A stretch of DNA of 64,000 bases from Tomitella gaofuii (lineage in GTDB: Bacteria; Actinomycetota; Actinomycetes; Mycobacteriales; Mycobacteriaceae), in assembly GCF_014126825.1 (NCBI RefSeq), contig NZ_CP059900.1, positions 930,001-994,000 on the forward strand, in the 5' to 3' direction. The position numbers and the translations under genes are program-made. The notes below the pieces were generated by a model. It made no database searches. It was not told the origin of the DNA and was given only the letters and a program-made list of their open reading frames with translations. Position 1 is the stretch's first letter. Each line of letters starts with the position of its first letter. Positions 10,875 to 64,000 of the stretch are shown in pieces.

Positions 10875-11013
10875 TCCGACTCCGGCGGGGGCGGGCTGCG
10901 GCCTGCCTCTGCCGGGAGGGTCACGGTGCCGGTCGGTCACACGCCGGCGCAAGAGAATCCCGGGCCCCAGCAGGGTCCACCGAATCACCGAGTCACGAGC
11001 GGGGAAGAATCCT

Positions 11014-13116
<2,103 letters not shown>

Positions 13117-14564: not shown

Positions 14565-14828
14565 AGTCGTGCCTGGTGTCGGCTAAACGATGGATTTTCT
14601 GTCGGGGAGCGCCAGTGGGTATCGTCGGGTGGTCTGCTGGTGGTAATGCCAGTGGTTGAATGGCACCATTCCGGGTAACGGAGGTGCACCGGTGAGGCGA
14701 TGTAGCAACCGGTAGCGGAATCGGCCGGGTCGGGTTCGGGTGGTCGGCGTATCGGCGACGGCCGCAATGTGAAGCGTGCGCGTGCAGCCTGTCTCGGGGC
14801 AGCTGTCCGAGCGGTGCGAAGGGAGCGG
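14565..14828 (+). promoter_or_regulatory. Upstream region of the nine-module NRPS gene
   Basis: About 260 non-coding bases. A perfect inverted repeat GAATGG-CA-CCATTC lies at 14658-14671 and is a candidate operator. A TATCGT hexamer near 14614 is a weak -10 candidate. A well-placed GGAGG at 14680-14684 precedes only a seven-codon frame (see the leader ORF). The last part, AAGGGAG at 14819-14825, is the ribosome binding site that decides the NRPS start at 14829. Confidence 0.4.
14692..14715 (+). other. Possible leader peptide ORF upstream of the NRPS
   Basis: A GTG-started frame reads VRRCSNR followed by TAG, with a perfect GGAGG seven bases before it. Cys-containing micro-ORFs act as attenuators upstream of some actinobacterial genes. 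Here the only support is the unusually good ribosome binding site in an otherwise non-coding leader, so this is speculative. Confidence 0.25.
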
Positions 14829-47800: not shown

Positions 47801-48593
47801 GGGTCGGCGGCCGTTGGATCTGAGCCGCGACCTGGTCGAATCGTTGCAGCGTACTGAAGTGCGCCTGAGTACTGCTGTCACTCGCGGGCTGCTCGATTCG
47901 GCGCGGAACGTGTTCGGGACCGACCCGGGGCGGCTGGCGACGGCCGCACTGTCAGCAGCGCTTGTGCAATGGCGTCGCCACCGCGGTATAGAAGAACCTT
48001 CCGCATTGATGACGCTGGAGGGGCATGGACGTGACGAGGCGGCTGTGCCGGGTGCGGATCTGTCCCGAACGGTCGGATGGTTCACGGCCATGTACCCGGC
48101 CCGCGTCGACTTGTCCGAGGTGGACGTGGACGAGGTCTTCTCCGGCAGTACGCGACGCAAGGCCGACGCCACGGTGAAGTTGGTCGAGAAGACCGCCGAG
48201 CAACTCGAGCGTGTGCCGGGGTCAGGTATCGGGTATGGGCTTCTGCGGTATCTCAACCCCCGCACGGCTCCGGAGCTTCAGCAGCATGGTGAGCCTCAGG
48301 TGGTTTTCAACTACATCGGCAGCGTGGAATCCTCGGAGATTCCAGAGGAGGTGCGCGGCCTGGGCTGGCTTCCGGATTTCGAGGACAACGATCTCGGAGT
48401 GGACAACCCCAGCCGGATGCCGGCGCAGGCGGTAGTGGACATCCAGTCGATGATCGCCGACACCGCGGAGGGGCCCGAGTACCTCGCTTACGTGTCGGTG
48501 GCCCCCGGGGTACTCGATGAGAGCGAGGCCGGTGAGCTGCTCGGCCTGTGGCAGCAGGCGCTTTCGGCGATCGCGGAGGCCGGCGCCCGGTGA
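14829..48593 (+). CDS. Giant nine-module non-ribosomal peptide synthetase, no thioesterase
   Basis: One open frame of about 11,254 codons (roughly 1.2 MDa) from ATG 14829; AAGGGAG lies just upstream. A GTG at 14769 would add 20 residues but has no ribosome binding site. Domain order is Cstarter-A-T-E, six C-A-T modules, C-A-T-E and C-A-T-E, with all nine carrier serines present. Modules 1, 8 and 9 carry epimerization domains, so residues 1, 8 and 9 of the nascent peptide should be D. The condensation domains of modules 2 and 9 are the D-accepting type (HHILLDGWS), as expected after an E domain. The first C domain resembles EntF and accepts a non-amino-acid starter. The protein ends in an E domain, so another synthetase must continue the chain; the left-edge NRPS with its TE is the obvious candidate. 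The stop overlaps the next gene by 4 nt. Product unknown. Confidence 0.97.
14880..19480 (+). other. NRPS module 1: starter C - A - T - E
   Basis: The C domain carries [10 protein letters not shown] (15279) and closely tracks EntF (GVHH/VDGF region, RHQRY, LFGP, LATGPVNDL-like STGPVEDL), which takes an acyl or aryl starter from a carrier protein. A-domain code DVWSLALVH resembles the EntF serine code DVWHFSLVD, so serine or a similar small hydroxy acid is likely but not proven. Carrier Ser is at 17859 (GGDSI, the form that precedes E domains). The E domain has [10 protein letters not shown] (18486), [19 protein letters not shown] and FNYLGR, all intact. Confidence 0.9.
19490..22670 (+). other. 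NRPS module 2: D-accepting C - A - T
   Basis: The C domain starts with [17 protein letters not shown] and has HHILLDGWS (19974), the signature of domains that accept a D-residue donor, in agreement with the E domain just before it. A-domain code DALFVGGIM, identical to module 4; substrate not assigned. Carrier Ser at 22548. Confidence 0.9.
22690..26220 (+). other. NRPS module 3: C - (A fragment) - atypical A - T
   Basis: The C domain is of the L-accepting type (HHIAADGAS near 23105). Between C and A, at about 24100-24400, lies a truncated adenylation N-terminus followed by a second C-domain-like tail. The full A domain is divergent: its A3 loop reads [15 protein letters not shown] instead of YTSGSTGxPKGVxV, and the region normally FDxS reads FDQTQKNIW. 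Code DQKNVGTDT, unlike the other modules and not assigned. Carrier Ser at 26085. Confidence 0.85.
24100..24400 (+). other. Adenylation N-terminal fragment with duplicated C tail (module 3)
   Basis: The residues read LPQLLAAAV, then [21 protein letters not shown], which is the opening of an A domain, but the sequence breaks off before A3 and continues into a helix ending LVGDIEIV, the usual end of a C domain (compare TVGDIEIL). It has no ATP-binding motif, so it cannot be active. A near-equivalent element is in module 5. Confidence 0.75.
26240..29390 (+). other. NRPS module 4: C - A - T
   Basis: L-accepting C domain (HHIASDGAS near 26640). A-domain code DALFVGGIM, the same nine residues as module 2, so the same amino acid is expected at positions 2 and 4. 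Carrier Ser at 29259 (GGNSL). Confidence 0.9.
29410..32880 (+). other. NRPS module 5: C - (A fragment) - A - T
   Basis: C domain with HHICADGSS near 29820. A second A-domain fragment lies at about 30840-31130, before a complete A domain with code DVWEVGTVT (substrate not assigned). Carrier Ser at 32763 (GGDSL). Confidence 0.88.
30840..31130 (+). other. Adenylation N-terminal fragment with duplicated C tail (module 5)
   Basis: It reads [18 protein letters not shown], then [16 protein letters not shown], the start of an A domain, then turns into a helical stretch ending [15 protein letters not shown] that resembles a C-domain end. The break point and length match the module 3 element, so the two are related by descent. 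Confidence 0.72.
32920..36060 (+). other. NRPS module 6: C - A - T
   Basis: C domain with HHISADGAS near 33318. The A domain has FDTSVGEM in place of the usual FDAS and code DTGVTGGVL, which matches none of the codes I know; substrate unknown. Carrier Ser at 35937 (GGNSL). Confidence 0.88.
36090..39250 (+). other. NRPS module 7: C - A - T
   Basis: C domain with HHVSTDGES near 36495. A-domain code DLWHLILVS, with CIGEALP where EntF has CSGEALP, so it belongs to the EntF-like serine/cysteine group of A domains by overall sequence. Substrate tentative. Carrier Ser at 39129 (GGNSL). Confidence 0.88.
39270..43900 (+). other. NRPS module 8: C - A - T - E
   Basis: The C domain core reads HHIAGDAAS near 39685: the glycine after the motif Asp is Ala, while the catalytic second His is kept. 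A-domain code DAFFSGLVW, not assigned. Carrier Ser at 42300 (GGDSI). The E domain is complete, with [10 protein letters not shown] near 42900, [19 protein letters not shown] and FNYLGR. Confidence 0.88.
43910..48590 (+). other. NRPS module 9: D-accepting C - A - T - E (terminal)
   Basis: C domain with [17 protein letters not shown] and HHILLDGWS near 44403, the D-accepting type. A-domain code DAWQFGLIN resembles glutamine/glutamate codes of the DAWQFGLID type seen in Pseudomonas lipopeptide synthetases; tentative. Carrier Ser at 47004 (GGDSI). The closing E domain reads [10 protein letters not shown] near 47583, with Ser in place of the motif glycine; [19 protein letters not shown] and FNYIGS are present. 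No release domain follows. Confidence 0.88.
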
Positions 48594-49558: not shown

Positions 49559-49570
49559 TCTGGCGGGGCC

Positions 49571-51256
49571 TCAGCCCGGGACTCGACCGGCGCGGGTGTA
49601 GCTGCCGTGGACGCCGAGCACGGCACGCCCGGACGGGTCCGCGGCTTCGGCAAAGGCCGGATCCCACGCCAGCGCCTCCGGGGTGGAGCAGGCGATGGAC
49701 TCGCCGCCCGGCACCGTGCGGGCGCAGGCGGAGCCCGGAAAATGCCGCTCGAAGATCTCGCGGTACAGGTACGCCTCTTTCGACTGGGGCGGGCTGTGGG
49801 GGAACCGCGTTGCCGCGGCGGCGAAGTCGGCATCGGAGACCGCCTTCTCCGCGTGGTCCTTGAGTCCGTCGATCCAGCCGTATCCGACCCCGTCGGAGAA
49901 TTGCTCCTTCTGCCGCCACAGGATGGAGTCCGGCAGCGCGCCGTCGAAAGCTTCACGCAAGGCGTGTTTCTCCATGCGCCCGTCGGCGATGGTCTTGCGG
50001 GAAGGATCCATGCTCATCGCCGTGTCGAGGAACTCGAGGTCCAGAAACGGCACGCGCGCTTCGACACCCCAGGCCATCATCGCCTTGTTCGCGCGGAGGC
50101 AGTCGTAACTGTGCAGCGCGTCGAGTTTGCGGACGGTCTCCTCGTGGAACTCGCGTGCGGACGGCGCCTTGTGGAAGTACAAGTAGCCGCCGAAGATTTC
50201 GTCTGATCCCTCTCCGGAGAGCACCATCTTCACGCCCATCGCCTTGATGCGGCGGGCCAGAAGGAACATGGGGGTCGATGCGCGGATGGTCGTCACATCG
50301 TAGGTCTCTATGTGCCGGATCACTTCCGGCAGTGCGTCGAGCCCTTCGTCGAAGGCGTAGGTGAATTCGTGATGTTCGGTGTCGATCGCCTCTGCCGCGA
50401 CGCGGGCGGCGGAGAGGTCCGGCGACCCGGTGAGCCCGATGGCGAACGAATGCAGGCGCGGCCACCAGGCGCGGCTGCGGTCGTCATCCTCGATCCGGTC
50501 GCGAGCGAACTTGGCCGCACACGCGGCCACGAGTGAGGAGTCGAGCCCGCCGGAGAGGAGGACCCCGTAGGGTACGTCCGTCATGAGCTGGCGGTGCACG
50601 GCGGCCTCGAAGCCCGAGCGCAGATCCGTCGGCACAGTATCCGAGCCCGCGACGGCATCGTAATCGCGCCATTCCGGTGCGTAGAACCGGACCAGGCCGA
50701 TCTCACTGTCGTAGACGTGCCCCGGTGGGAAGACCTCCACGTCGTCGCAAACGCCTACCAGCGCCTTCATCTCCGAGGCGGTCCAGAGACGGCCCACGGA
50801 GTCGCGCCCCCAATACAGCGGGCAGACACCCATCGGATCGCGGGAGATCAGCGCCCGTCCGGCCTCGGAGTCCCAGAGAGCGAACGCGAAGATGCCGTTG
50901 AGCCGGCCGAGGAAAGACGTGTCGCGGCACGCGGCGTAGAGAGCATTGATCACCTCGCTGTCCGATGCGGTGGTGAACTCGTAGTCCAGGCGCTCGCGCA
51001 GCGAGCGGTGGTTGTAGATTTCGCCGTTGACGGCGAGCGTCAGCGTGCCGTCGCGCGAGGTCATGGGCTGTGCGCCGCTGCCGGGATCGACGATGGCGAG
51101 GCGCTCGTGCGCAAGCACCGCTCCGTCGCGTACGGCGACGCCGCTCCAGTCGGGGCCGCGATGCCGCTGCTTGCTCGACATTTCGACGGCGCGTTGGCGC
51201 AGTGCGGCCAGGTCGTCTCCGGCGGGCAGGTCGAAACAGCCGAGAATCGCGCACAC
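49571..51256 (-). CDS. asnB: Asparagine synthetase (glutamine-hydrolysing), AsnB type
   Basis: A 561-residue protein of the E. coli AsnB length and type. It begins MCAILGCFD, which provides the Cys2 nucleophile of the glutaminase domain; NGEIYNH and the RDPMGVCPLYWG region follow. The synthetase domain has the PP-loop SGGLDSS near residue 235. It makes asparagine from aspartate, glutamine and ATP. The GTG start at 51256 follows a GGAGAGGAG site. It converges on the NRPS-linked hydrolase with a 12-nt gap. It may simply supply Asn, or be a pathway amidotransferase; full active sites in both domains favour a true asparagine synthetase. Confidence 0.92.
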   Translation of the reverse strand: MCAILGCFDLPAGDDLAALRQRAVEMSSKQRHRGPDWSGVAVRDGAVLAHERLAIVDPGSGAQPMTSRDGTLTLAVNGEIYNHRSLRERLDYEFTTASDSEVINALYAACRDTSFLGRLNGIFAFALWDSEAGRALISRDPMGVCPLYWGRDSVGRLWTASEMKALVGVCDDVEVFPPGHVYDSEIGLVRFYAPEWRDYDAVAGSDTVPTDLRSGFEAAVHRQLMTDVPYGVLLSGGLDSSLVAACAAKFARDRIEDDDRSRAWWPRLHSFAIGLTGSPDLSAARVAAEAIDTEHHEFTYAFDEGLDALPEVIRHIETYDVTTIRASTPMFLLARRIKAMGVKMVLSGEGSDEIFGGYLYFHKAPSAREFHEETVRKLDALHSYDCLRANKAMMAWGVEARVPFLDLEFLDTAMSMDPSRKTIADGRMEKHALREAFDGALPDSILWRQKEQFSDGVGYGWIDGLKDHAEKAVSDADFAAAATRFPHSPPQSKEAYLYREIFERHFPGSACARTVPGGESIACSTPEALAWDPAFAEAADPSGRAVLGVHGSYTRAGRVPG

Positions 51257-51436
51257 GGCGAAGGCTCCTCTCCAGAAGGTGGGCGGTACGCGCGTCGGCG
51301 GTCCCGTTCACTGAACAGGTCTCATGGTAAACGCCGTTCGCATCGCAGGCTCGTTCTGCGCGCGGCCGTGCGGGTGGCTCCCGGTCCGGACCTGTGGGGG
51401 CTGTCGCCCGCGGGGAGACGTCGGGATGTGCGGTGC

Positions 51437-52375
51437 TCAGCCGGCGCAGGGGGCTTCGTGGGTCTGCGCGTAGGCCGGATCGAGCGCGGACTGGACCAGA
51501 TAGACCGAGCGGGGGTTGCTCACCAGCTGTTCGTGACTTGTCGTGTTCTCTTTGCAGCCGTTCTGGACCCAGACGTTGTCCACGGTGGCACCGGGCCCCG
51601 CGGTGAGGAACGTGTTCGAGGGGGGAGTCGAGATGCGGTCGCTGTGCGAGGCGATCACCGTGTAGTGCACGCCGGGCACGGTGTCTCCGCCGGCGTTGAG
51701 GCGATCGAGGAATTCGCTGCCGACCATCTGCTCCGCGTAGGACGGGCCCACGGTACGGGCGAGGATTTTCTGCACAGGGACGCCGATGCGCGTGAGCGCG
51801 CGGGAGATCGCGACGACGTCGCCGAACGTGGAGCCATGGTTGGTAGCGCCCAGGGTGACCAGGTTGCGCACCTTGTTGTCCGCGGGGGCTTCGGGAACCG
51901 CGCCGCCGTGGAACCGCAGGTACTGGCGTGCGACCAGCCCACCTTGGGAATGCCCGACCATATCGACTTGACGGGCCCCGGTCTCCTGCAGGACCCGGTC
52001 GACGAATGCGGACAGCTGGGCCGCGGACCAGTCGATGTTCGCCCCGCCGCCGAGACCCAGCAGGTTGCCGTCGAGGGCATTGCCGTCATTGCCGTAATCG
52101 GGTGCGAAGACGCAATATCCCTCGTCGGCGAGTTGCGGCCCGAGCGTCGACCACGTGGTCTCGGCGTCCGACCAGGTGCCGTGCACGAGGATCACGGGAC
52201 GCGGGTGCTCGGCCGACGGGACGCATCCCCAATCATTGACGCGGGGCAGCGCTTGGGAGGCGGAAGCCGGGATGAGCGGTATGGCCTGCGCCGCGCCGGC
52301 CGTGAGGATAGCGGGGGCGCCGACGAGGGTGAGAGCGGACGCGAGCGCGGCCATGGTCGTGCGAATACCGGTCAT
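51437..52375 (-). CDS. Secreted triacylglycerol lipase (actinobacterial type)
   Basis: 312 residues with a clear signal peptide: basic MTGIRTT start, hydrophobic core and cleavage after AGAAQA. The mature part has VNDW, PVILVHGTWSD (oxyanion region), GHSQGG around the nucleophile near residue 140, LGATNHGST and a C-terminal His region. The pattern matches secreted lipases of actinobacteria. ATG at 52375 is chosen for the signal peptide and the GGGAGAGG site just upstream; the longer frame before it is not coding. It lies upstream of asnB on the same strand with a 180-nt gap. A paralog is encoded divergently 269 nt away. Confidence 0.92.
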   Translation of the reverse strand: MTGIRTTMAALASALTLVGAPAILTAGAAQAIPLIPASASQALPRVNDWGCVPSAEHPRPVILVHGTWSDAETTWSTLGPQLADEGYCVFAPDYGNDGNALDGNLLGLGGGANIDWSAAQLSAFVDRVLQETGARQVDMVGHSQGGLVARQYLRFHGGAVPEAPADNKVRNLVTLGATNHGSTFGDVVAISRALTRIGVPVQKILARTVGPSYAEQMVGSEFLDRLNAGGDTVPGVHYTVIASHSDRISTPPSNTFLTAGPGATVDNVWVQNGCKENTTSHEQLVSNPRSVYLVQSALDPAYAQTHEAPCAG

Positions 52376-52644
52376 GCTGGCCTCTCCCGGGGCTGTTGTA
52401 TGCGGGTGTATGCGGGGCGTGCCCGTCGGTGGCACGCGGATTGCGGCGGTGGAGGTCTGCGCGCAAGGTGCCGATGGGACCCTGCCCTCGAGCAGTGGCC
52501 GATCATGCGCCGGAACGCACATTACCCTGTTGCTCAAGTTTCTGCTGTGGCGCCTGTGGTTTGGGCTCAGGCCGGGTGACGGCGCTGCGGGTGATGCGTA
52601 TCGTTGGCGATGCGGTGTCGATCGACGTGAGGATGTGATCCGGC

Positions 52645-53577
52645 ATGGGTGCATGGCAACGCGCGGCGTTCGAGTTCGCCGTCGATGGTGCCGTTGCGGC
52701 GGCCTCTGCAGTGCGGCGCCGGAATCACGATCCATTTCCACCGTCGCCCATCGACGGTGTCAACGACTGGACGGCTCCGCTCTCGGCGCAGCGTCCGCGC
52801 CCGGTGGTGCTGGTGCACGGCACCGGCGTCGGTGTGCGCGATACGTGGGATGTGATCGCAGCCGCCCTCGTGGCCGACGGATATCGGGTCTTCGCGGTCG
52901 AGCATGGCCGACGGCGCGGTCTGTTCGATGGGAACCTGACCGATCGACCGGGGGGCGGGGATATCGCGGATTCGGCGATCGAGTTGTCCGGGTTCGTCGA
53001 GAGCGTCAGGCGCGCGACGGGCGCGGAGCGTGTCGACATCGTCGCCCACTCGATGGGCGGGGTGGTAGCGCGCCAATACCTGCGGTTCTCCGGCGGGGCC
53101 GACCCGGCCGCGCCGGAGAACAACAAGGTCGGCCGGCTCGTCATGCTCGGAGCGACGAACCACGGCATCACATTCGGGACGATGCAGCTGATCGGCATGG
53201 CCGCGGAGAGGCTGGGCCTTCCGCTGGGCGCGCTCAGTGATGCCGCGTTGGGGCGGTCGCTGGCCCAGCAGATGGTGGGGTCGTCCTTCCTCGACCGCCT
53301 CAACGAAGGCGGCGACACCGTCCCCGGGGTGCAGTACACGGTGATCGCCAGCAGGGATGATCAGGTTTCCACCCCGCCCGAGCGCACGTTCCTCACCGCG
53401 GGGGACGGGTCGCGAGTGCGCAATATCTGGGTGCAGGACATCGATCCGTCCGCTCAGGTCGACCACATGCAGCTGTGCACGCATGAGGTCGCGGTTGACA
53501 TCGTCCGTGAGGCGCTCGGAAGTGCGGCCGTCGGCGCCGACGGGGCGCTGGAGACACGCGCGGAATCGTGCGGGTGA
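52645..53577 (+). CDS. Lipase/esterase paralog without signal peptide
   Basis: 310 residues, clearly homologous to the neighbouring secreted lipase: VNDW, RPVVLVHGTG, AHSMGG nucleophile elbow, ARQYLRFSGGA, LGATNHGITFG and SFLDRLNEGGDTVPGVQYTV are shared. The N-terminus MGAWQRAAFEF has no signal sequence, so it is probably cytoplasmic or wall-associated by another route. ATG at 52645 has only a poor ribosome binding site. The divergent 269-nt gap should hold promoters for both genes; none is obvious by eye. The two lipases probably arose by duplication. Confidence 0.88.
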   Translation: MGAWQRAAFEFAVDGAVAAASAVRRRNHDPFPPSPIDGVNDWTAPLSAQRPRPVVLVHGTGVGVRDTWDVIAAALVADGYRVFAVEHGRRRGLFDGNLTDRPGGGDIADSAIELSGFVESVRRATGAERVDIVAHSMGGVVARQYLRFSGGADPAAPENNKVGRLVMLGATNHGITFGTMQLIGMAAERLGLPLGALSDAALGRSLAQQMVGSSFLDRLNEGGDTVPGVQYTVIASRDDQVSTPPERTFLTAGDGSRVRNIWVQDIDPSAQVDHMQLCTHEVAVDIVREALGSAAVGADGALETRAESCG

Positions 53578-53587
53578 GCGCGACAGA

Positions 53588-54838: not shown

Positions 54839-55221
54839 GACCGGCCTCCCCAAACCGCTGCTCCTGGTGTGAAGCCATCGCCAGTCTACCGCCTTTCCGT
54901 GCCCTCCGCGTCCCTGCGGCCCGTGCGTCGGTGCGGATGCTCCCACCCGGGAGAACGTGTCATGCGGTTGAAAACTGAATCTGACCTGTTTCAGACGTAT
55001 AATACCAACGCGGACGCCCTGCTTGGGGTGTCTGTGGCCTTCGTAACTTGGGTGCGTGGAGTCGGGTGAGATGGCGTGCGACGCCGAGCCGGGCCGCCGA
55101 GCGCTGGTTGCCGACACTTGATCGGTTACGGTACCGAGGGTGCTTCGGACATGCGTCCAGTCATCGTTGTGTGAACCCGCTGGCTGGCACGGGGAGTGCT
55201 GTGAGTCGGAAGGGAGGGGCC
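54839..55221 (+). promoter_or_regulatory. Divergent intergenic region with a consensus -10 box
   Basis: 383 bases between alkB and the FemAB-like gene. A perfect TATAAT lies at 54998-55003; at 17-nt spacing the -35 position holds CTGAAT, which is weak. A short inverted repeat TCTGA-CCTGTT-TCAGA at 54980-54995 abuts the -10 box and could be an operator. A 35-codon frame at 54962-55069 with GGGAG upstream overlaps this promoter and is not accepted as a gene. GGGAGG at 55212-55217 is the ribosome binding site of the next gene. Confidence 0.45.
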
Positions 55222-56376
55222 GTGGCGGGATCGCTGTGGAGGGCGCGTGCACATCGCTTTGGCGCGAAGGGGTCGCCCGGCCCGCCGGTGCAGGTCCGTT
55301 TCGCTGATTCGGACGAGGTTGCACGGTGGGATGACCTGCTACTGGCCGCGCCGGATGAAGGCAACGCATACCGGGGCAGCGTCAACATCGCATGCATGGC
55401 GTTGCAGGGGTATCAGGCGGTCCGTCTCATCGTCGGCGGACACGCTGTGACGGGGTTCCGCGTCGACGTACGGCCGCTCGGTGCGATGTGGATGCTCATA
55501 GGCCCACCCGCGTCGGATGCGGTGGAGCTGGTCGATGCGGCGTGTGCGATTGCTGATTTCGCGGCCGAGCACGGGGTCTCGGCGGTTCGGGTCCGCCCCC
55601 AGCTGCGCGAGGATGAAGGAGCCGCCCGATTCCTGCGTGACAGCGGTCTGGTGCGGGTGCCGTCGTGGCTGTCGGACCATATCGCCGTGGTGGATCTCTC
55701 CGGCACACAGCAGCAGGTCTATGCGCGGTTCAAAAAGCAGACGCGGCATGCGCTGCGCCGTTCGGTGCGCGAGGGCGTGCAGGTGCGCCGGGTCGAGCCG
55801 ACGTCCGAGAACTGCGTGACGATGAACCGCCTGGTCGAGCAGACGCGGCATGAACGTTTCAGCACACCGCCGGACCATGTGCTGACCGATATCTACCGCA
55901 CACTCTCGGCGGACGGTGCAGGGCAGATGTTCATGGCGTGGCATGGGGGGCGGGTCGTGGCGGCCGCTTTCGCGGTCGTATTCGGCGAGAACGCCATGTG
56001 CATGGTGGGGGGATCGGTCCGCAAGGCGCCGGGGGACGCGGAGCATCCGGGGCTGGGCACGTCCGGAGCCGGATACGCACTGCAGTGGGAGTGCATGAAG
56101 TGGGCGCATGAGAGGGGCTGTACGCGGTACGACATGGACGTCACACCATCCACCGCATACATTCACGACCCGACGCACCCGTTCCATCGGATCGGCAAGT
56201 TCAAGAAATCCTTCAGCCGGGAGATCACCGACTACCTCGGCTGCTACCAGGTGTCCGGACGCCCCCTGTCCGGATGGATGATCCGCAGGGCGGAACGATT
56301 TACGCAGCGCAAGGCAGCCCGCCGCGCACGTCAACGCGGCCGGCGGCCGAATCCGGACTTCGTGTGGCTGAGATGA
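55222..56376 (+). CDS. FemAB/GNAT-like acyl- or aminoacyltransferase
   Basis: About 384 residues with a FemAB-like GNAT fold (Acetyltransf_6 type). Recognisable segments are the lysine/arginine-rich FKKQTRHALRRSVREG after the first half, then MFMAWHGGRVVAAAFAV and a closing GCTRYDMDVTP with HRIGKFKKSF, typical of FemAB and peptidoglycan-bridge enzymes. Such proteins transfer amino acids from aminoacyl-tRNA to lipid-linked precursors, or acyl groups to sugars. GTG at 55222 follows GGGAGG; GTG at 55201 is an alternative. The very C-terminus is strongly basic, perhaps for membrane or nucleic acid contact. It lies just upstream of the first QueC-like gene on the same strand, separated by a hairpin. 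Substrate unknown. Confidence 0.75.
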   Translation: MAGSLWRARAHRFGAKGSPGPPVQVRFADSDEVARWDDLLLAAPDEGNAYRGSVNIACMALQGYQAVRLIVGGHAVTGFRVDVRPLGAMWMLIGPPASDAVELVDAACAIADFAAEHGVSAVRVRPQLREDEGAARFLRDSGLVRVPSWLSDHIAVVDLSGTQQQVYARFKKQTRHALRRSVREGVQVRRVEPTSENCVTMNRLVEQTRHERFSTPPDHVLTDIYRTLSADGAGQMFMAWHGGRVVAAAFAVVFGENAMCMVGGSVRKAPGDAEHPGLGTSGAGYALQWECMKWAHERGCTRYDMDVTPSTAYIHDPTHPFHRIGKFKKSFSREITDYLGCYQVSGRPLSGWMIRRAERFTQRKAARRARQRGRRPNPDFVWLR

Positions 56377-56502
56377 CACTGACGCTCGCCGGAGACTAAC
56401 GGCACGCAGGTGTCGTGGTGCATCGCCTGCTCGCCCGTATGCGCGGAGTGCGTCGCTCACGCTTACAGTGTCGGAAGAAGCTGTACGCACATACGGCGTG
56501 AC

Positions 56503-56527
56503 CACCCGGGGCTGAGTTCCCCGGGTG
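56503..56527 (+). terminator. Hairpin between FemAB-like and QueC-like genes
   Basis: A perfect 9-bp stem, CACCCGGGG with CCCCGGGTG, around a 7-nt loop, followed by TTT. It ends 26 nt before the next start codon, so it may act as a terminator or as an attenuator of the QueC-like gene. Confidence 0.65.
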
Positions 56528-56553
56528 TTTGCACGCCGAGTTAGGACGAACCC

Positions 56554-57720
56554 ATGTCCTCCACACTCGCCGTCCGCGTGAACCCGCCTTCGGGGAACGA
56601 GGTATCGGCACGTTTCTCAGTAGGTAAGAAGAGATTCACGGTTCGCACGTCGGCGAACGTCTCACTCGCCTCCGGCGCGACGCCGTGGCTTGCGCCGGGG
56701 CTGTTGGCGGCGATGCGCCAGAATGCCGCTCTGGACATCGACGGGCCCCTGGACTCAGTGGCGCTCACCGGTGCCGAGGAGGTCCAGCGGATCATGAGCG
56801 ACTGGTATCCGGCACAGATGCACGCCACTGCCATTCTGCAACAAGAAACCACGAATGAGACCCTCGCCGGTGGTAGAGGGGTCGGATGCTTCTTCTCAGG
56901 CGGGGTCGATTCGTTCTATTCCACCGTCAAACACATCGACGAGATCACGCACCTCATATTCATCCACGGGTTCGATATTCCGCTGGACAATGAAGACTTG
57001 GCCGAGCGCACGCTGCGTACCCTCCGCAAGGCGGCTGAGGATCTGGGAAAACCCCTCATTGAGGTCCGAACGAATCTGCGGCAGGTTCATGCGCTGCTGG
57101 GGCTTGATTGGGAATCGCATTCGCACGGGTCGCTCCTCGCGCATGTCGCGCTTCTGCTAACGGACCATATTGGCAAGTTGTATCTTCCGTCGAACCGCAT
57201 CGAGGGCGAGCTGGAGCCGTATGCCACGCACCCGGATCTCGACAAGCATTGGGGGTCCCGCGGTCTCGAGATCGTGCACGATGGCAACGAGGCGAACAGG
57301 CCGATGAAGGTCGCGGCGTTCGCCGACAGCGAGCCGGCGATGAACAACCTCCGAGTCTGCTGGTGGAACAAAGACAATGATTACAACTGCGGGCACTGTG
57401 AGAAGTGCATTCGCACGATGATGAACATCAAGATTGCGGGTGCAGAGGGAAAGTGCGCAACCCTGCCTGCTGATATTCCATATGATGTGTACAACCGGAT
57501 GTATATCAATAAGCCGGGAAAGCACGGTGCAGTGGAGAATCTGAAGGCGATGGACGATTTCGGATACCGGGACGCCGAGATGGAGCGTGCGTTACGCGAC
57601 GCGATCGACAGGCCCACGTGGCAGAACCAGATCTTCCATGCTCGCCAGTTGGCCGGCTTGGCACCTCAGTTCGCCGGCTTTCTTTGGAAAAAGGGCACCG
57701 GGCAGCTGTCACAAAAGTAG
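56554..57720 (+). CDS. QueC-like PP-loop ATP-pyrophosphatase family protein, paralog 1
   Basis: 388 residues. Residues 1-105 form an N-terminal domain shared only with the three paralogs nearby (pattern RFTVRTSANVSL, then TPWLAPGLLAAM). The PP-loop SGGVDS is at residues 115-120. HGFDI follows where canonical QueC has YGQRH. Four cysteines at 269, 279, 282 and 285 (C-x9-C-x2-C-x2-C, NCGHCEKC) match the zinc site of QueC, which turns a carboxylate into an amide and nitrile using ATP and ammonia. The fold is therefore a nucleotide alpha-hydrolase activating a carboxylate or similar group, but the substrate is unlikely to be the queuosine precursor. ATG 56554 has AGGA eight bases upstream. It is transcribed toward the three other paralogs. 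Confidence 0.82.
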   Translation: MSSTLAVRVNPPSGNEVSARFSVGKKRFTVRTSANVSLASGATPWLAPGLLAAMRQNAALDIDGPLDSVALTGAEEVQRIMSDWYPAQMHATAILQQETTNETLAGGRGVGCFFSGGVDSFYSTVKHIDEITHLIFIHGFDIPLDNEDLAERTLRTLRKAAEDLGKPLIEVRTNLRQVHALLGLDWESHSHGSLLAHVALLLTDHIGKLYLPSNRIEGELEPYATHPDLDKHWGSRGLEIVHDGNEANRPMKVAAFADSEPAMNNLRVCWWNKDNDYNCGHCEKCIRTMMNIKIAGAEGKCATLPADIPYDVYNRMYINKPGKHGAVENLKAMDDFGYRDAEMERALRDAIDRPTWQNQIFHARQLAGLAPQFAGFLWKKGTGQLSQK

Positions 57721-57734
57721 ATGGTTGAGCCTGA

Positions 57735-57785
57735 GCGCCCGGCCTGGCCCGCTTGCTGCTGTGTGGCTTGCGGCAGGCCGGGCGC
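57735..57785. terminator. Bidirectional terminator between convergent QueC-like genes
   Basis: A perfect 12-bp stem, GCGCCCGGCCTG with CAGGCCGGGCGC, encloses a 27-nt loop. It fills the 72-nt gap between two convergent paralogs and can serve both strands. Confidence 0.75.
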
Positions 57786-57792
57786 GATGGGA

Positions 57793-58969
57793 TCAATCGG
57801 TATCGCCCCTTCGGGCAATGATGGCTTGGTAGGCCTTCTCCCGTAGCGTCAGCCCCAGGACTTTGACCACGGTAAAGATGTACCACGAGCGTGCCGTCGC
57901 CTTCTGCAGAGCCGAGCGGTGCAGCGCCGATTCGAGCGCGCTCTCGAGTTCGGGATCGTCGCGGTCGGAATTTTGTAGTGCTCGAAGATTATCCCGCAGA
58001 AAATAGACGGCGCTGGGATTATCTGTGGGGATTTTCGAAAGGGCCTTCGCGGCGTCAATCGGCGGCAACGCGCGGCATTTATCGGCAGCACCTACGATGC
58101 GCATGTTAATCGCTGTACGAACGCATTTCTCGCATTCTCCACAGTTCAGCGCGTCGCTGCGGTTCCAGAAACAAACTCGAAGATGCTGCATGGCTGCAGG
58201 ACTTTCTTTCGCCGTCGCGGCCTTCGCTACGCGATCGGCTTCGAGTCCGTCGTGGATGAGTTGCACGTTACTGCTGGACCACAGCGGGTCCAGGTCGGGG
58301 TGCGTACCTCTCGGTGCGAGGTTGCCCTCCGTACGGCCCGCTGGGATATAGACGGTGTGCAGGTGATCCGCGAGGGAGAGAGCCACGTGGGCAAGCCCGA
58401 AGCCGACGTCCCATCCTCCGTTCATCTCGAACATGCGACGAATGTTCGTCTGATATTCGATCAGGTGCTTACCCATTTCCGCAGCGGCCTCACGAACCCC
58501 CTCGAGGCTCTTCTCGTAATGTCGGCGACTGTGGCTGTTGAGAAAAATATCGAACCCGTGCACGAAGATGAGATGCGTGATGTCAGGCTGGTGCTTTACA
58601 GCTGAATAAAATGAGTCGAGTCCACCGCTAAAAAAACACCCGACCCCGCGTTCTCCGTGGCCTTTGTCCTGCGTGGAATCTGCCACGAGGTTGACCTTGC
58701 GCATGGTATTCGGCCACCACTCGTGGAGGGTATTCTGTGCGGTTTCGGCGCCTTGCAAAGTGCTTTCGTCGACGGCTGAATCGACGCGTAAATCCAACCC
58801 CTTGCGCATCGCCATGATCAGCGCCGGTGGAAGCCATGCCGTGCCGGTGTTGCGTAGGGGTGACGTTCGCGGATCCGTTCACCCGGTACTGTGAGTCGTT
58901 CCACGCGAACTCGGCCGCGGTTTCGTTCGTATTGCAGTCCACGGGCGTTACAGTGAACACTTGAGACAC
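57793..58969 (-). pseudogene. QueC-like paralog 2, frameshifted near the N-terminus
   Basis: From 58815 to 57793 the frame encodes the PP-loop (CFFSGGLDSFYS), HGFDIFLN, THPDLDPLWSS and the zinc motif NCGECEKCVRT, all intact. The family N-terminal segment (AAEFAWNDSQY then SANVT) is present from about 58969 but in another frame. The two frames meet at a run of four G (top strand) at 58857-58860. Removing one base restores SANVTLRNTGTAWLPPALIMAMRKG, matching the other paralogs. It is thus either an inactivated gene, a sequencing error or a slippage-prone switch. Translation from ATG 58815 would give a 340-residue protein lacking the N-terminal domain. The predicted original start is GTG 58969, without a clear ribosome binding site. 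Confidence 0.75.
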
Positions 58970-59007
58970 CAATCTATATCGTCGCTGAAGTGCGGATGCA
59001 AATTCTG

Positions 59008-60177
59008 TTATCGTGGCCGGCCGACGCGGGAGCCGATCGAACGTCTGATCTTTTGTGAAAGCAGAATGAACGGCAATTTTGCTTCTCTGGTGAAGTTCCA
59101 TAGCTCTGCTGCGATTTCTTGCCTCGGGGTTCGGCGCAGCGTCTGTTCTAAGGCAGAGCGCAGTTCAGGATCAACGACTCCCGCATCGTTCATTTCTTGC
59201 AGATAGTGCTCCAGGTAATATCTAAACTGCGGAGCCTTCGCCGGGACCTTGCGCAGTGTCTTGGCTACGTTATATTCGGGAAACGAGGTGCACGCCCCTG
59301 ACGCGCCGACAATACGAAGATTGATCGCTGTGCGGACGCATTTTTCGCACTCCCCGCAGTTTTGCGTGTCGCTACGGTTTGCGAAACATACACGCAAGTG
59401 TGCCATCGCGGCGGGGCTTTCTTTGATGGCTCGGGCTTTCGCGATTCTGTTCGCTTCAAGGCCGTCGTGGATGATTTCGGTAACGGAGCTGGTCCACAGG
59501 TGGTCGAGATCCGGGTGTGTTCCGCGCGGGGGAAGGTTGTCACCATACTCGCCGGCCGGGATGTAGACGGCCCGAAGATGATCGGATAGAAGATGCACGA
59601 TGTTCGGTAGTGCGTATCCGATATCCCATCCTCCATTGTATTCAAAAAGCGGGCGAATGTTCGTCGTGACCGTGATCAATTCTTTGCCGAGTTCGTCGGC
59701 GGCCGCCTGTACACCGCGCAGTGCTGTCTCGTAGTGGTCTTCGCTTTTTAGGAATATATCGAACCCTTGGACGAAGATGAGATGGGTGATGTTGGGCTGG
59801 TTCTTCACGGCGGAATAGAAAGAATCGAGTCCGCCGCTGAAAAAACACCCAACGCCGCGGTTGTCGGGGGCTGTTGCCGTCGTCGATGTCGCATCGATTT
59901 TGACGGCGTGCATTGTGTCAGGCCACCATGAACAAAACAAGGACTGCGCCTGTGTTGCGCCGTCGAGCGCCTTTGCGTCGACGGGGCCATTTACACTGAG
60001 GTCGAGCCCTTTCTTCATGGCGAGAACTAGTGACGGTGTGAGCCAGGCCGTCGCGCTGTTGCGAAGTGTAACGTTTGCGCTTGTCTCGATCGTGTAAGAC
60101 TTGTCTGCCCAGGACAGTTCAGCGGCCGCCTGGTTCATAGGGCGCTTGATGGGCGTGGTGGTGAACGTATCTATCAT
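59008..60177 (-). CDS. QueC-like PP-loop ATP-pyrophosphatase family protein, paralog 3
   Basis: 389 residues, intact. Order of motifs: SYTIETSANVTLRNSATAWL in the N-terminal domain, CFFSGGLDSFYS as PP-loop near residue 113, VQGFDIFLK (VQGFDI here instead of VHGFDI), THPDLDHLWTSS and NCGECEKCVRTAINL. It is in the same orientation as paralogs 2 and 4, with 38 and 53 nt gaps, so the three probably form one transcript. ATG at 60177 has no strong ribosome binding site. Function as for paralog 1: ATP-dependent activation of an unknown carboxylate, inferred from the fold motifs only. Confidence 0.82.
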   Translation of the reverse strand: MIDTFTTTPIKRPMNQAAAELSWADKSYTIETSANVTLRNSATAWLTPSLVLAMKKGLDLSVNGPVDAKALDGATQAQSLFCSWWPDTMHAVKIDATSTTATAPDNRGVGCFFSGGLDSFYSAVKNQPNITHLIFVQGFDIFLKSEDHYETALRGVQAAADELGKELITVTTNIRPLFEYNGGWDIGYALPNIVHLLSDHLRAVYIPAGEYGDNLPPRGTHPDLDHLWTSSVTEIIHDGLEANRIAKARAIKESPAAMAHLRVCFANRSDTQNCGECEKCVRTAINLRIVGASGACTSFPEYNVAKTLRKVPAKAPQFRYYLEHYLQEMNDAGVVDPELRSALEQTLRRTPRQEIAAELWNFTREAKLPFILLSQKIRRSIGSRVGRPR

Positions 60178-60230
60178 GGATGTACCCGATCATGGTTGGA
60201 CGAAAGAAAGGTGCGTATTTCGAGAGGAGT

Positions 60231-61385
60231 TCAAGGAGAGGGAGTCAGCTTTTGGTAGATAAGTATCAATGCCATTTTCGTCGACGTTATACTCGACCAG
60301 AATGCCGCGATGGCACGCTGCATGGGGCTCCGGTCCAGTGCAAGTTTAAGTTCGTTAAGAATGTCCTCGTCCGCTTCTGGAAGATTTGTCAATGCGCAAA
60401 TGTTTTCCCTTAGGAAGTATATCTGATTCGGCGTGGTGTATTTAATATGACGTATGGCTCTGGGGATGTTCGTTTGCGGTATTGCGGTAAAGGATTCGCC
60501 TGCCCCGGCGGCTTTCATGTTAAGTGCAGTGCGTACGCATTTTTCGCATTCCCCACAGTTTTGTACGTCGCTTCGGTTCCAGGAGCATACGCGGAGGTGA
60601 TGCATCGCTGCTGGCGTACCTAATATGGCTTTGGCCTTTTCAGTGCGGGTGGCCTCGAAGTTGTCGTACACTAGTGTGACCGCTTGACTTGACCAAAGCG
60701 GGTCCAGTTCGGGGTGGGAGCCATGAGGAATCAGATTGTCTCGGTGATGAGAAGCGGGGATTAGCGCGGTGTGAATGTGGTCGGAAAGCAAGAAGGCTAC
60801 GTGTGCCATCGCCGCGCCGTGAGCGTGCATCCAATTGCGTCCGGAGACGAACGGTGTTTTGATGCTTGTTGTAACTTCGATTAGTGTCTTATTCATTTCC
60901 GTTGCGATAGTGCGGATGTGTTTCAGGGCGTTTCGATAATGGGCTGTGCTGTTTAGGTATATATCGAAGCCATGCACGAATATAAGATGTGTGACTGTGT
61001 GATCGTTAGTGATGGCTGAGTAAAAAGAGTCTAGTCCACCGCTGAAAAAGCAACCAATTCCACGGCCATTCGCAGTCTGGTTTGGTTCGGTGGACGCTTC
61101 GATACTGATCTTGTGCAGTTCCTCTGGCCACCAACTGTGGAGTAGCTGCTGCGCTTCGTTGGTGCCCTCGAGTGTTTTAGGGTCGACAGTCGAGTCAATG
61201 TGCAGCGGAAGATCTTTTTTCATCGCCATGATCGTGGCCGGGGGCAGCCATGCGGTCGCGGTGTTGCGAAGCGTGACGTTTGCGCTCGTCTCGATCGTGT
61301 AGGTCTTATCGCCCCACGAAAATTCTGCCGCAGCCTCGTGATCGGGACGGTCTAAAACATTGACGGTGAAGGTCTCTGCGGTCAT
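60231..61385 (-). CDS. QueC-like PP-loop ATP-pyrophosphatase family protein, paralog 4
   Basis: 384 residues, intact. The N-terminal domain has TYTIETSANVTL and TAWLPPATIMAM; the PP-loop is CFFSGGLDSFYS, followed by VHGFDIYLN, SHPELDPLWSS and NCGECEKCVRTALNM. ATG 61385 has GGAG eight bases upstream. Base composition is clearly lower in GC than elsewhere in the window (about 50% in a sampled 60-nt stretch at 60901-60960) and codons ending in A or T are frequent, a sign of more recent acquisition. It lies 57 nt downstream of the WS/DGAT gene on the same strand, as the first paralog of the probable operon. Confidence 0.82.
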   Translation of the reverse strand: MTAETFTVNVLDRPDHEAAAEFSWGDKTYTIETSANVTLRNTATAWLPPATIMAMKKDLPLHIDSTVDPKTLEGTNEAQQLLHSWWPEELHKISIEASTEPNQTANGRGIGCFFSGGLDSFYSAITNDHTVTHLIFVHGFDIYLNSTAHYRNALKHIRTIATEMNKTLIEVTTSIKTPFVSGRNWMHAHGAAMAHVAFLLSDHIHTALIPASHHRDNLIPHGSHPELDPLWSSQAVTLVYDNFEATRTEKAKAILGTPAAMHHLRVCSWNRSDVQNCGECEKCVRTALNMKAAGAGESFTAIPQTNIPRAIRHIKYTTPNQIYFLRENICALTNLPEADEDILNELKLALDRSPMQRAIAAFWSSITSTKMALILIYQKLTPSP

Positions 61386-61442
61386 TGGTGACTCCGTGTT
61401 GGCGGTATGAGTGGGAGGAGCGGTTGTATCGAGGTGGATCGG

Positions 61443-62861
61443 TCAGGAACCGGCGTGCGTCAACGCCCGAGTTGTCTCTTCGTAGGCGTATTGGAGAGAG
61501 GACTTGTAGGCGGCAGCGTCGGGCACGGCGTCGCGGTCGGCGACGAAACATATGGTGAGGGTATCGCCGATGGTGTAGATCCCGTGGTTAAGGGCGGTTC
61601 TGGAGTCCAACGCCGGCAGTCCATAGCTCGACACGACCCGGCCGCCGTCGAGGGTCAAATCATCGGCACCGCGCCGCACGTTCGTGATCATCGTATTAGA
61701 CAGACCTACTTGCGATCCTGTGTCCGGCCAGTGTCGGTTTATCAGTGAGGTGGCTGCTAGCGCGGTGGACGGTAGGTACTGGAGTAGCGATCGTGAGCGC
61801 TGAACCGCCCCATTGAGGTCCCGGCACTTGTCCGTGCGGACACTGTTGCTGATGGCGATGCAACGCAGATATAGGTCGGGTTCGTCGTTATGGAGATCGA
61901 CGATGAGTGCGTCGAATTGGTTCGCCGAGGGTTTGTCGATCTTCCCGCGGGTGGACATGGGTACCAGTGCGGCGAGGTTCGAAGGAATCGGCTCTCCGCA
62001 ATCGGAGAGATACAGCTCCATTGCGCGCGAGATCATGGTCAGCAGAAAATCGTTCACGGTGACGTCCGGTACTGCCGCCTTGGCTGCGCGGATTTCAGGT
62101 ACAGAGACAGAGAGCGCGTCGAACGTGCGAGTGGGCCGAGGCTTGTGGTTGAAGCGTGTGCGCGGGCGTTTGTGCTGGGGGAGGGTGATTGTCCCCTCGG
62201 TATCGAGGCGCGCCACGGTGCGTGATGCCGCGGCGATGTCCTTCACCCCGCGGGCCAGTCGTGCCACTTGCGCCGGCTGATGGCGCAGCGCGGACCGCAG
62301 GAGGTGACGGCGTGAAGCGGTAGTGCTGGAAGAGTCGGGGCGAGGTGCGTCCCCCGTTTCGTTCGGGTCGGCTGTTCCCAACAAACCGCGTAGCACTGCG
62401 ACACTGAACAAGCCATCGCCCAGCGCATGATGCATCTTCAGCGTGATGGCGGTGGCATATTCCGCGCCATCGATGTCGTGAAGTCCCGTATCCACATGGA
62501 GCTCCCATGGCGGGGCGTCGAGGTCCAATTGCGTGGCGGCGAGTCGCTCGAGACGGTGACGCAGATACTCCCATCCTGCGCCGCCCGCATAGCGCGTGTG
62601 GATATGCCGCGCCGGCCGGAATGATTCGTCGTCGATCCAGTACGGGTAGTCTAGGTCGAAAGGGACGCGGCGGAGCCGGCGGCGTAGCTCCGGCATCATT
62701 GCCGCCCGGTGTGCGAGGCGGGCCATCAGTGCCTGTGTGGCCGCTGCGTCGTCCGTCTCTACCCGGGTGGACTCGAATATGAACACGGCGACGATCTGCA
62801 GGGGTAGAGCCCTGTGCTCCAGGTAGACGTACGCGGCATCGGTAGGGTCGAGTTGCTGCAC
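61443..62861 (-). CDS. Wax ester synthase / acyl-CoA:diacylglycerol acyltransferase family protein
   Basis: 472 residues, normal for the WS/DGAT family. It starts with LDPTDAAYVYLEHRALPLQI, the family's opening pattern, and has the catalytic MHHALGDG near residue 143, VNDFLLTMI in the middle and SNTMITNVRR in the C-terminal half. These enzymes join acyl-CoA to alcohols or diacylglycerol and are structurally related to NRPS condensation domains. GTG at 62861 is chosen because AGGAGG precedes it and the family N-terminus begins there; a 39-residue extension is not supported. It lies upstream of the QueC-like paralogs in the same orientation. It could make storage lipid or O-acylate a metabolite. 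Confidence 0.9.
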   Translation of the reverse strand: MQQLDPTDAAYVYLEHRALPLQIVAVFIFESTRVETDDAAATQALMARLAHRAAMMPELRRRLRRVPFDLDYPYWIDDESFRPARHIHTRYAGGAGWEYLRHRLERLAATQLDLDAPPWELHVDTGLHDIDGAEYATAITLKMHHALGDGLFSVAVLRGLLGTADPNETGDAPRPDSSSTTASRRHLLRSALRHQPAQVARLARGVKDIAAASRTVARLDTEGTITLPQHKRPRTRFNHKPRPTRTFDALSVSVPEIRAAKAAVPDVTVNDFLLTMISRAMELYLSDCGEPIPSNLAALVPMSTRGKIDKPSANQFDALIVDLHNDEPDLYLRCIAISNSVRTDKCRDLNGAVQRSRSLLQYLPSTALAATSLINRHWPDTGSQVGLSNTMITNVRRGADDLTLDGGRVVSSYGLPALDSRTALNHGIYTIGDTLTICFVADRDAVPDAAAYKSSLQYAYEETTRALTHAGS

Positions 62862-63011
62862 GCGCTCCTCCTGATGTTGTGCATAATAACCGGCAAGGCT
62901 GCGGCCGTGCGACACACTGCGGAGCCTGCCGCGCCTCGGAGCCGCAACGTTACATCTTTGGGAGTTTGAAAGCTCCAAATAATACAGTGAGATGAAAACG
63001 TCCAGCAGTGA

Positions 63012-63968
63012 TCAGGGGTTGGCCGCCTTCCGGAAGCCACGGATGGCCGGGTAGGTGAACAGCAGGATCAGTCCCACAGCCCACGCGAGCGTGTACCAGA
63101 GGTTGTTTCCGAGGGGGGTCCCCAGCGCGAATGAACGCATCGCTTCGACAGCGCAGCTCATCGGCTGATACTCGACGAATGTCTGCAGCCACTGCGGGTA
63201 TGCCATCAGCGGAACGAAGCCGGTGTTGAAAAACATCAGCAGTGAGGTAACCAGCGATATCATCTCGATGAGTTTCGTCTGCCCGCCGACGACTGCCGCG
63301 GCCGTGACCATGGTTGCGAAGGCGAGGCCGAAAAGCAGCGGGATGAAGAACATGCCGACGGCCGGCCAGAAGCCGTTCTGGAACCGGAATCCCAGCAACA
63401 CGCCGACGATCAGGATGACCGCGGTCGTCACGATGATCCGCACCGCCTCGGCGATGAGCCGGCCGGCGAGACTCGACGCCCTGTGCACCGGCAGAACCCA
63501 GAATCGCGACAGCAACCCCGAACGTTTTTCCAGCTGCAAGCTTATTGCCCCCACCATGGAGCCGACCATCGAGGCGATGAGAGCCATCATGGCCACTTGC
63601 CCGTAGATCGCCGACTGCCCCGTGGCGGCACCGATGGAGTTGCCCAATACCACCTTGAACATGACCAACATGAGGCCGGGGTAGAGGAGTACTTGGACAG
63701 TCGTCAGGGGATCCCGCAGCCAGCCGAAGAGGAGCCGGTGGGCGTGGAGCAGGCTCTGGCGTGGTAAGGCGCGCAGTGACGTCTCCGGCCACGCGTGCGT
63801 GAGCTCGGGAAACTCCAAGGCTTCCCGCTCTGCCTGCGAAGTGAGGGACGCAGGCACGGCGTCGTCGTGGACGGCAAACGCTGATGCCGGTTCAGTAGCG
63901 CCGGGATCAGCGCGCAAATTCTTCGCAGGCTTCGTCAAGGTGCGTGAGGCAGTGTGCCGTGGGCTCAT
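63012..63968 (-). CDS. ABC-2 type transporter permease, DrrB/DrrC-like
   Basis: 318 residues from ATG 63968, which follows GGGAGG. The first 90 residues are polar; about six hydrophobic segments follow, beginning near DPLTTVQVLLYPGLMLVMF and ending at WYTLAWAVGLILLFTYPAIRGF. The motif PQWLQTFVEYQPMSCAVEAMR is typical of daunorubicin-type ABC-2 permeases. The cognate ATPase is not visible; the start ATG overlaps a TGA in another frame (ATGA), suggesting that the ATPase gene ends here and lies just beyond the window. It is a second exporter, distinct from the one after the left-edge NRPS. Confidence 0.9.
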   Translation of the reverse strand: MSPRHTASRTLTKPAKNLRADPGATEPASAFAVHDDAVPASLTSQAEREALEFPELTHAWPETSLRALPRQSLLHAHRLLFGWLRDPLTTVQVLLYPGLMLVMFKVVLGNSIGAATGQSAIYGQVAMMALIASMVGSMVGAISLQLEKRSGLLSRFWVLPVHRASSLAGRLIAEAVRIIVTTAVILIVGVLLGFRFQNGFWPAVGMFFIPLLFGLAFATMVTAAAVVGGQTKLIEMISLVTSLLMFFNTGFVPLMAYPQWLQTFVEYQPMSCAVEAMRSFALGTPLGNNLWYTLAWAVGLILLFTYPAIRGFRKAANP

Positions 63969-64000
63969 CCGCGCCTCCCGTTCGCCCAAATGCTGATCGG
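63965..64000 (-). CDS. Possible 3' end of an upstream gene (partial)
   Basis: On the minus strand the last 36 bases read PISIWANGRRG and a TGA that overlaps the permease ATG by 4 nt. The overlap style is the same as in the left-hand ABC operon, so an ABC ATPase gene is expected here, but eleven residues cannot show it. Confidence 0.3.
   Translation of the reverse strand, partial: PISIWANGRRG

Follow-up and report, generated by a model that had tools for sequence, protein, structure and literature searches.

A 64,000-nucleotide stretch of the Tomitella gaofuii chromosome (NZ_CP059900.1, positions 930,001 to 994,000 of the forward strand; hereafter the window) raises the question of what four diverged relatives of QueC are doing side by side near a giant non-ribosomal peptide synthetase (NRPS) gene. 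The genomic context suggests a tie between cell-surface chemistry and phages: one further copy lies in a prophage, relatives pair with a polysaccharide pyruvyltransferase, and a hypervariable islet cuts through the cluster. These three observations go beyond a preliminary description of the locus. We tentatively favour, at somewhat under an even chance, the view that the proteins act on a carboxylate of some cell-surface molecule and belong to the zinc-tetracysteine PP-loop ATP pyrophosphatases, with QatC and QueC as distant relatives.

Four QueC-like genes and a hypervariable islet

The cluster consists of the following features:
56554..57720, + strand: QueC-like copy A, 388 amino acids (aa), intact; HGFDI; 99 % identical to its T. 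cavernea orthologue
57793..58815, − strand: QueC-like copy B, main frame of 340 aa with PP-loop and zinc motif; N-terminus in another frame (within 58628-59101); broken
59008..60177, − strand: QueC-like copy C, intact, 389 aa; carries the QGFDI variant; the tree shows no orthologue from T. cavernea
60231..61385, − strand: QueC-like copy D, intact, 384 aa; shares 68 % identity with D of T. cavernea
58000..61150, strand not applicable: GC-poor hypervariable islet whose breakpoints fall within copies B and D, from the T. cavernea comparison and GC content

As the preliminary description had stated, four homologues, three intact and one frameshifted, span 4.9 kb (56554-61385); it did not include the fifth, prophage-borne copy. 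Chance was excluded as the source of their likeness, copy D being 39 %, 50 % and 47 % identical to A, B and C (E 3e-82, 5e-110 and 8e-118, respectively). A, C and D each have an intact PP-loop, SGG(V/L)DS, and an intact C-x9-C-x2-C-x2-C motif, and B has both in its main frame; at the position of YGQRH in QueC we found HGFDI in A, B and D and QGFDI in C, again as described. On our reading, the first ~40 residues of B lie in another frame, around 58850-58970, and B was therefore called broken and kept unmended. Across 22 aligned sequences the four cysteines, N276 and K282 are invariant, as are W46, W85 and P87 of the N-terminal domain. Promoter and terminator scans gave results at chance level.

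When the window was compared with T. cavernea, positions 49041-58257 gave a single match of 97.6 % identity. In 250-base steps, identity was 94-100 % up to ~58000, then 67-82 % or unalignable up to ~61150, except for one 53-base piece at 87 %. Beyond ~61150 it was 97 %, dropping to 89 % across the WS/DGAT gene, and it was 73-77 % in the ABC permease gene. The drops start inside copy B and inside copy D, both of which are therefore mosaics: relative to T. cavernea, B retains its C-terminal end and D its first 60-75 residues, beyond which D differs, catalytic core included. The GC content of B, C and D was 0.579, 0.557 and 0.519, compared with 0.686 around them. Over the window and 20 related loci, in a test that pools paralogues, GC content was 0.617 for 30 family genes and 0.669 for 254 other frames (p 2e-7).

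T. cavernea and T. biformata carry the same cluster with three and four copies, respectively; in two further Tomitella genomes, one of them 81 % complete, no copy was found, and the NRPS match was also missing in both. In a tree of 59 rows, from which the fragment L045 and the duplicates L117, L110 and L076 had been dropped, copy A clustered with its T. cavernea and T. biformata kin in one clade (100/99), and a second clade (100/99) held B, C and D together with the prophage copy and other T. cavernea and T. biformata copies.

In wider genome sets, carriers were found in 18 of 201 genomes of the family set, 10 of 396 of the phylum set and 8 of 397 of the order set; the last two were searched with profiles and four candidates were scored per genome, so that copies per genome are bounded and misses are possible. 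Genes in unannotated genomes were called with a crude script. Relatives were also present in 13 plasmid records (Azospirillum, Gemmobacter, Gloeothece, Priestia and Nostoc) and in ten IMG/VR loci. Tandem copies occur in G059 and in one Priestia plasmid as well. On a 2.6-kb Priestia megaterium plasmid (L182, NZ_CP130479.1) the QueC-like gene is one of two annotated genes, and in genus g11 (L031, L035 and L037) the relative lies near a predicted mycolyltransferase that looks Ag85-like by eye from the sequence.

The low GC content of the window copies, the broken copy B and this patchy spread would all suit selfish or decaying genes that were acquired horizontally and have no current role in the locus. 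We consider this reading very unlikely, since copy D is under purifying selection (ratio of non-synonymous to synonymous substitution rates, dN/dS, 0.18; the value of 0.30 for copy A comes from very few changes), A, C and D keep their catalytic motifs, and two lineages were retained in all three NRPS-bearing Tomitella species.

Phage carriage and glycan neighbours

A prophage elsewhere in this genome harbours the fifth copy (G000:C1:3272924-3274081). This copy is 48 % identical to copy D (E 9e-108; match 3272930-3274075) and groups with B, C and D at 99/91 in the tree. Upstream of it are genes for terminase, portal, major head, tape measure, minor tail and endolysin; a 518-aa gene converges with it, followed by an integrase gene beside a tRNA-Ser. 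The copy is thus found on the opposite strand between the structural and lysis genes and the integrase-attachment end, the position of prophage cargo, where temperate phages carry genes with effects on their host. The window genes that were scanned included no phage gene.

Four of the six IMG/VR loci whose neighbours were scanned (L114, L117, L122 and L123 were left out) have tail or baseplate genes no more than 4 kb from the relative, and the matches were strong in L118, L120 and L121. A search of INPHARED with copy D returned no phage record at E 0.01; it is the prophage described above and the IMG/VR contigs that supply the phage evidence.

A second kind of neighbour is found on plasmids. 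A polysaccharide pyruvyltransferase gene directly adjoins the QueC-like gene in 9 of the 11 plasmid records read (13 were found; H7 and H8 were unread): in all five Azospirillum records read, in Gemmobacter, in two of Gloeothece and in Priestia aryabhattai, which has two QueC-like copies in tandem, the first of them next to the pyruvyltransferase gene. It is not a direct neighbour in the Priestia megaterium pS3 and Nostoc records. Among 26 carrier genomes, Pfam placed PF04230 within 3 kb of the QueC-like gene in four (G144, G455, G521 and G563) and within 10 kb in two more (G275 and G001), and in G790 a local model identified a pyruvyltransferase gene overlapping the QueC-like one. The Gemmobacter row reads pyruvyltransferase, QueC-like protein, ATP-grasp protein and PF13480. 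PF13480 also lies within 2 kb of a QueC-like gene in G000, G013 and G513 (29 genomes searched); in T. biformata its sole match is on another contig.

How could such proteins act on a surface? They would hold zinc and cleave ATP, and from the fold we infer that they adenylate a carboxylate, which may be a pyruvate ketal or a uronate on a glycan, or an acid on a lipopeptide. Adenylation would release pyrophosphate, and attack by ammonia or an amine would give an amide, if the fold is a guide. The neighbouring genes point to a surface substrate, and the paralogues may differ in the acceptor. The islet together with phage carriage suggests that change is selected for, in the simplest case by surface-binding phages: recombination and phage carriage would swap versions, altering the surface and probably phage adsorption too, and the prophage copy would serve lysogenic conversion. 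In its fullest form, the proposal is that phages and hosts share and recombine QueC-fold ligases that alter a carboxylate on envelope glycans or on the giant NRPS lipopeptide, and that the catalytic part is swapped between paralogues to evade or exclude phages; this surface-variation system we regard as possible but doubtful.

The preliminary description had mentioned a role in conflict as an alternative. The linkage to phages strengthens this idea, although in our view the conflict would run through the surface rather than through a system of the Qat type. If the proposal is correct, the QueC fold was recruited one further time, for surface chemistry, and lysogenic conversion, known for glycosyl- and acetyltransferases, gains another kind of enzyme. 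It would also provide a genetic handle on the product of an NRPS of some 11,300 residues, encoded in one open reading frame in 23 of the 201 family genomes.

Several observations weigh against these conclusions. Phage genomes are rich in tail genes, and the count of four in six stands without a null expectation; the tail match in L115 is weak (E ~1e-5), and no tail neighbour was seen in L116 and L119 among the six viral loci scanned. No PF04230 was found within 10 kb in 20 of the 26 carrier genomes. The window locus itself is without a pyruvyltransferase gene, the two PF04230 matches of the genome being elsewhere. Some relatives adjoin household genes, namely those for MutL, Ni-SOD, gamma-glutamyltranspeptidase, Dfp and a tRNA pseudouridine synthase. 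GC content is not low everywhere, with 33 of 45 genes below their own locus, and plain horizontal transfer would also explain the low GC and the mosaicism.

The giant NRPS locus

The remaining genes around the cluster are the following:
14769..48593, + strand: giant NRPS, 11,274 aa, nine adenylation cores; one open reading frame also in other genera
49571..51256, − strand: AsnB-type amidotransferase of the NRPS locus; G182 has a 76 % homologue next to its NRPS
51437..52741, − strand: lipase 1 of the NRPS locus; homologues of 50-58 % identity adjoin the NRPS in G010, G040, G105, G144, G059, G194, G023, G005, G182 and G016
52645..53577, + strand: lipase 2 of the NRPS locus, from the comparison of NRPS loci across genomes
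55117..56376, + strand: FemAB-like/PF13480 transferase (Pfam); 98 % identical in T. cavernea
61443..62948, − strand: WS/DGAT O-acyltransferase of the NRPS locus (Pfam WS_DGAT_cat)
63012..63989, − strand: DrrC-like ABC-2 permease of the NRPS locus (Pfam ABC2_membrane)

Pfam agrees with the identities given to the neighbours in the preliminary description (PF13480/FemAB, WS_DGAT_cat and ABC2_membrane); the NCBIfam names WS/DGAT and DrrC score under the NCBIfam cut-offs. Two tRNA calls in the window, within the NRPS and FemAB genes, look spurious. At 10030-14513, genes for S12, S7, EF-G and EF-Tu lie between the giant NRPS and a two-module NRPS with thioesterase and ABC genes (1-9675), so that the ribosomal core operon of the window has NRPS genes on both sides.

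Are the QueC-like proteins then tailoring enzymes of the NRPS product? On this account each paralogue would amidate or nitrilate a different acidic residue of the giant lipopeptide, and the phage copies would reflect incidental transfer. The giant NRPS, as a single frame of 11.1-11.9 kaa (E <=1e-135; G142 with 8,862 aa and G057 with E 5e-127 were excluded), is found in 23 of the 201 family genomes. Where both could be read, the order of adenylation codes in G092 is similar to that in the window; the codes served only to compare module order. The QueC-like family occurs in 13 of these 23 genomes, as against 5 of the other 178 (Fisher p 8e-11), and permutation within genera gave p 4e-5, taking only genomes listed in the NRPS search. 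The two loci are linked in three Tomitella species and G092, and lie ~47 kb apart in G144. In G001 another large NRPS starts less than 9 kb from the QueC-like copy, and both Gloeothece relatives are near NRPS genes.

The association is weakened in turn by resting on related genomes, by the 10 of 23 giant-NRPS genomes without the family, and by the 8 of 13 genomes with both in which the genes are on different contigs or megabases apart. The stretches read around the Azospirillum, Gemmobacter and Priestia relatives hold no annotated NRPS, and the phage copies lie near tail genes. Dedicated tailoring of the NRPS product therefore seems unlikely to us.

The preliminary description had also named the FemAB, WS/DGAT and export genes as partners. 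This was not supported: in G105 and G182, both without a QueC-like match, the giant NRPS also has WS/DGAT, lipase and DrrABC genes around it, and in G023 and G016 it has a lipase gene there. Since these genes recur at the NRPS in the absence of the family, we assign the WS/DGAT, lipase and export genes to the NRPS locus, to which the QueC-like genes are a variable addition. Of the amide- or nitrile-forming system that had been proposed to act on the NRPS product, the amide-type chemistry, plausible from the fold, and the NRPS association stood, and the listed partners were not supported; the idea was partly right, with a partner list made up mostly of the NRPS locus. A WS/DGAT-like gene near the G001 copy was set aside, having a weak BLAST match (24 %) and no Pfam match.

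Copy number bears on the same point. Eleven of the 18 carriers in the family set have a single copy. In five of these (G010, G040, G049, G056 and G144) a BLAST comparison over the 20 kb read gave no homologue of FemAB, WS/DGAT or ABC-2; a WS/DGAT or ABC-2 homologue is present in the remaining six, distant except for the ABC-2 permease of G001 (48 %). Thus the single, neighbour-free occurrence that the preliminary description would have held against its own idea was found in half measure.

In several giant-NRPS genomes, lipase, WS/DGAT, DrrABC or pyruvyltransferase genes stand beside the NRPS, and the pyruvyltransferase gene lies less than 8 kb from it in G010, G040, G105 and G005. The NRPS loci of G001, G144 and G182 each have nearby a run of small genes of comparable sizes (~101, 220, 226, 101 and 278 aa; L043 3959-9148, L163 9262-12403 and L173 89-2911).

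Comparison with known PP-loop enzymes

No Pfam model reached its cut-off in copies A-D. QueC (PF06508) gave at best 12 bits, in copy C, against a cut-off of 22 bits; among NCBIfam models, asparagine synthase scored highest (16.6 bits), followed by QatC (16). The QatC model NF041925 scored 13.9-16 bits in the four copies against a cut-off of 280, with no match in the genome, and the PADLOC QatC score was at most 14.2. When the PDB was searched by sequence with the family, the one match was an unrelated protein (E 0.93).

Profile comparison with QueC, QatC and AsnB was a check that the preliminary description had proposed. When the family profile (38 of 39 sequences kept) was aligned by hhalign with ten QatC sequences, the result was 96.0 % (E 4e-9) over the catalytic core, compared with 62.9 % (E 7e-5) for five QueC sequences; three unrelated neighbour families, used as controls, gave 0.1-0.2 %, and QatC against QueC gave 98.4 %. 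The 22 close members alone gave 93.8 % with QatC. Two results were less favourable: the same 22 reached only 24.6 % with QueC, and the 91.0 % of the 17 distant members with QatC covered only 32 columns, at the cysteine end. By profile, then, the family appears nearer to QatC than to QueC, although the QatC score and partners are lacking.

The zinc motif was found in all 39 members read and the PP-loop in 38, with a permissive pattern. The QueC signature of SGGxDS and C(x)8CxxCxxC is recognizable, yet all 22 close members have a spacing of 9 instead of 8, and the 17 distant ones range from 6 to 12. The substrate motifs YxQxHxxE, VPxRN and YPDC, as described in the portion consulted of a 2026 survey of the QueC family (PMC13329287), are not kept: in the profile alignment VPNRNA of QueC lies opposite HGAAMAH, and YPDC beside (T/S)HPDLD or SHPELD. 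The N-terminal domain of ~100 residues, thought at first to be private to this cluster, is present throughout the close family, including full-length relatives in other genera, and distant members have a stretch of matching length at its position. It was suspected to be the extension of QatC, which was not supported (hhalign of the extensions alone, 0.1 %).

QueC itself (PF06508; PDB 3bl5 and 2pg3) shares SGGxDS and the C(x)nCxxCxxC zinc site with the family, which differs in its extra 100-residue N-terminal domain, in lacking YxQxHxxE, VPxRN, YPDC and QueD, and in falling below the Pfam cut-off. PF06508 matched in none of five Tomitella genomes, and QueD (PF01242) is absent from 24 of 29 carrier genomes, including the three copy-bearing Tomitella (queE was not searched). 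The earlier statement that no other queuosine gene is present thus holds genome-wide for QueC and QueD, TGT and QueE not having been searched. We therefore rejected a canonical QueC role. With QueC and QueD absent, preQ0 synthesis is unlikely without an outside supply, as had been supposed of paralogues this diverged, and so is the conjugation of deazaguanine to protein, which is proposed for QatC and Cap9 in the consulted portion of PMC13329287.

AsnB asparagine synthetase is also a PP-loop ATPase, but the copies have no glutaminase domain, and kinship was rejected at an hhalign value of 5 %. DUF6395 (PF19932) is matched by 6 of the 17 distant members (best E 1e-4) and weakly by copy C at residues 256-326, at the cysteine end, the window copies scoring below the cut-off. 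A search for it gave 0 of 149 genomes, and because its controls were silent too, it shows nothing; a literature search under DUF6395 gave no paper.

The sugar amidotransferases NASAT and WbpG suggest another activity, in which ammonia would be added to an N-acetyl sugar to form an acetamidino group. As far as the consulted parts of PMC10607449 describe them, they too are zinc-tetracysteine PP-loop ATPases within surface polysaccharide loci. Their cysteines follow CxxC(x)n[GN]xCxxC there, so that order and spacing differ from C-x9-CxxCxxC here, and no model of this type matched in the NCBIfam scans; such an activity is in our estimation highly improbable.

A further possibility is intracellular anti-phage defence of the QatC or Cap9 type, in which the N-terminus of a partner protein would be modified to arm it. 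QatC is the nearest known relative by profile, one copy sits in a prophage, and prophages often carry defence genes; phrog_1550 ('QueC-like') matches 8 of 10 members, weakly (best E 8.5e-5). Such a role is distinctly unlikely, considering that the QatC model reaches no more than 16 bits, that the 7-deazaguanine route would mostly lack QueD, and that the constant neighbour in plasmid records is a glycan enzyme. In addition, neither qatA (ATPase) nor qatD (TatD) was found among the window and prophage neighbours scanned, nor was a CD-NTase family seen among the neighbours scanned. Cap9 of type IV CBASS, at ~185 aa, is also far shorter than the copies (384-389 aa).

Searches of the literature on QueC paralogues, PP-loop amidotransferases, Tomitella clusters, NRPS, pyruvyltransferases and lysogenic conversion yielded no account of the family. 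The 2026 map in PMC13329287, in the portion consulted, covers the ten largest PF06508 clusters, and the window members probably lie outside it because they are below the PF06508 cut-off.

The closest comparison remains that with QatC of the Qat anti-phage system (NF041925; PDB 9vlk and 9zee). Both have the PP-loop, a CGxC zinc region, a length of ~400 aa and an N-terminal extension, and the HP pair of the family (THP or SHP) aligns with THP of QatC, going by the QatC motifs listed in the same portion of PMC13329287. The zinc end reads CGxCxKCxRT rather than CGxCxxRR, the extensions do not align, and the scores are far below the QatC cut-off. Taken together, the profile kinship, the replaced substrate motifs and the N-terminal domain place the copies, as judged from sequence, in a distinct branch of the PP-loop ATPases, as yet without a name, on the side of QueC and QatC.

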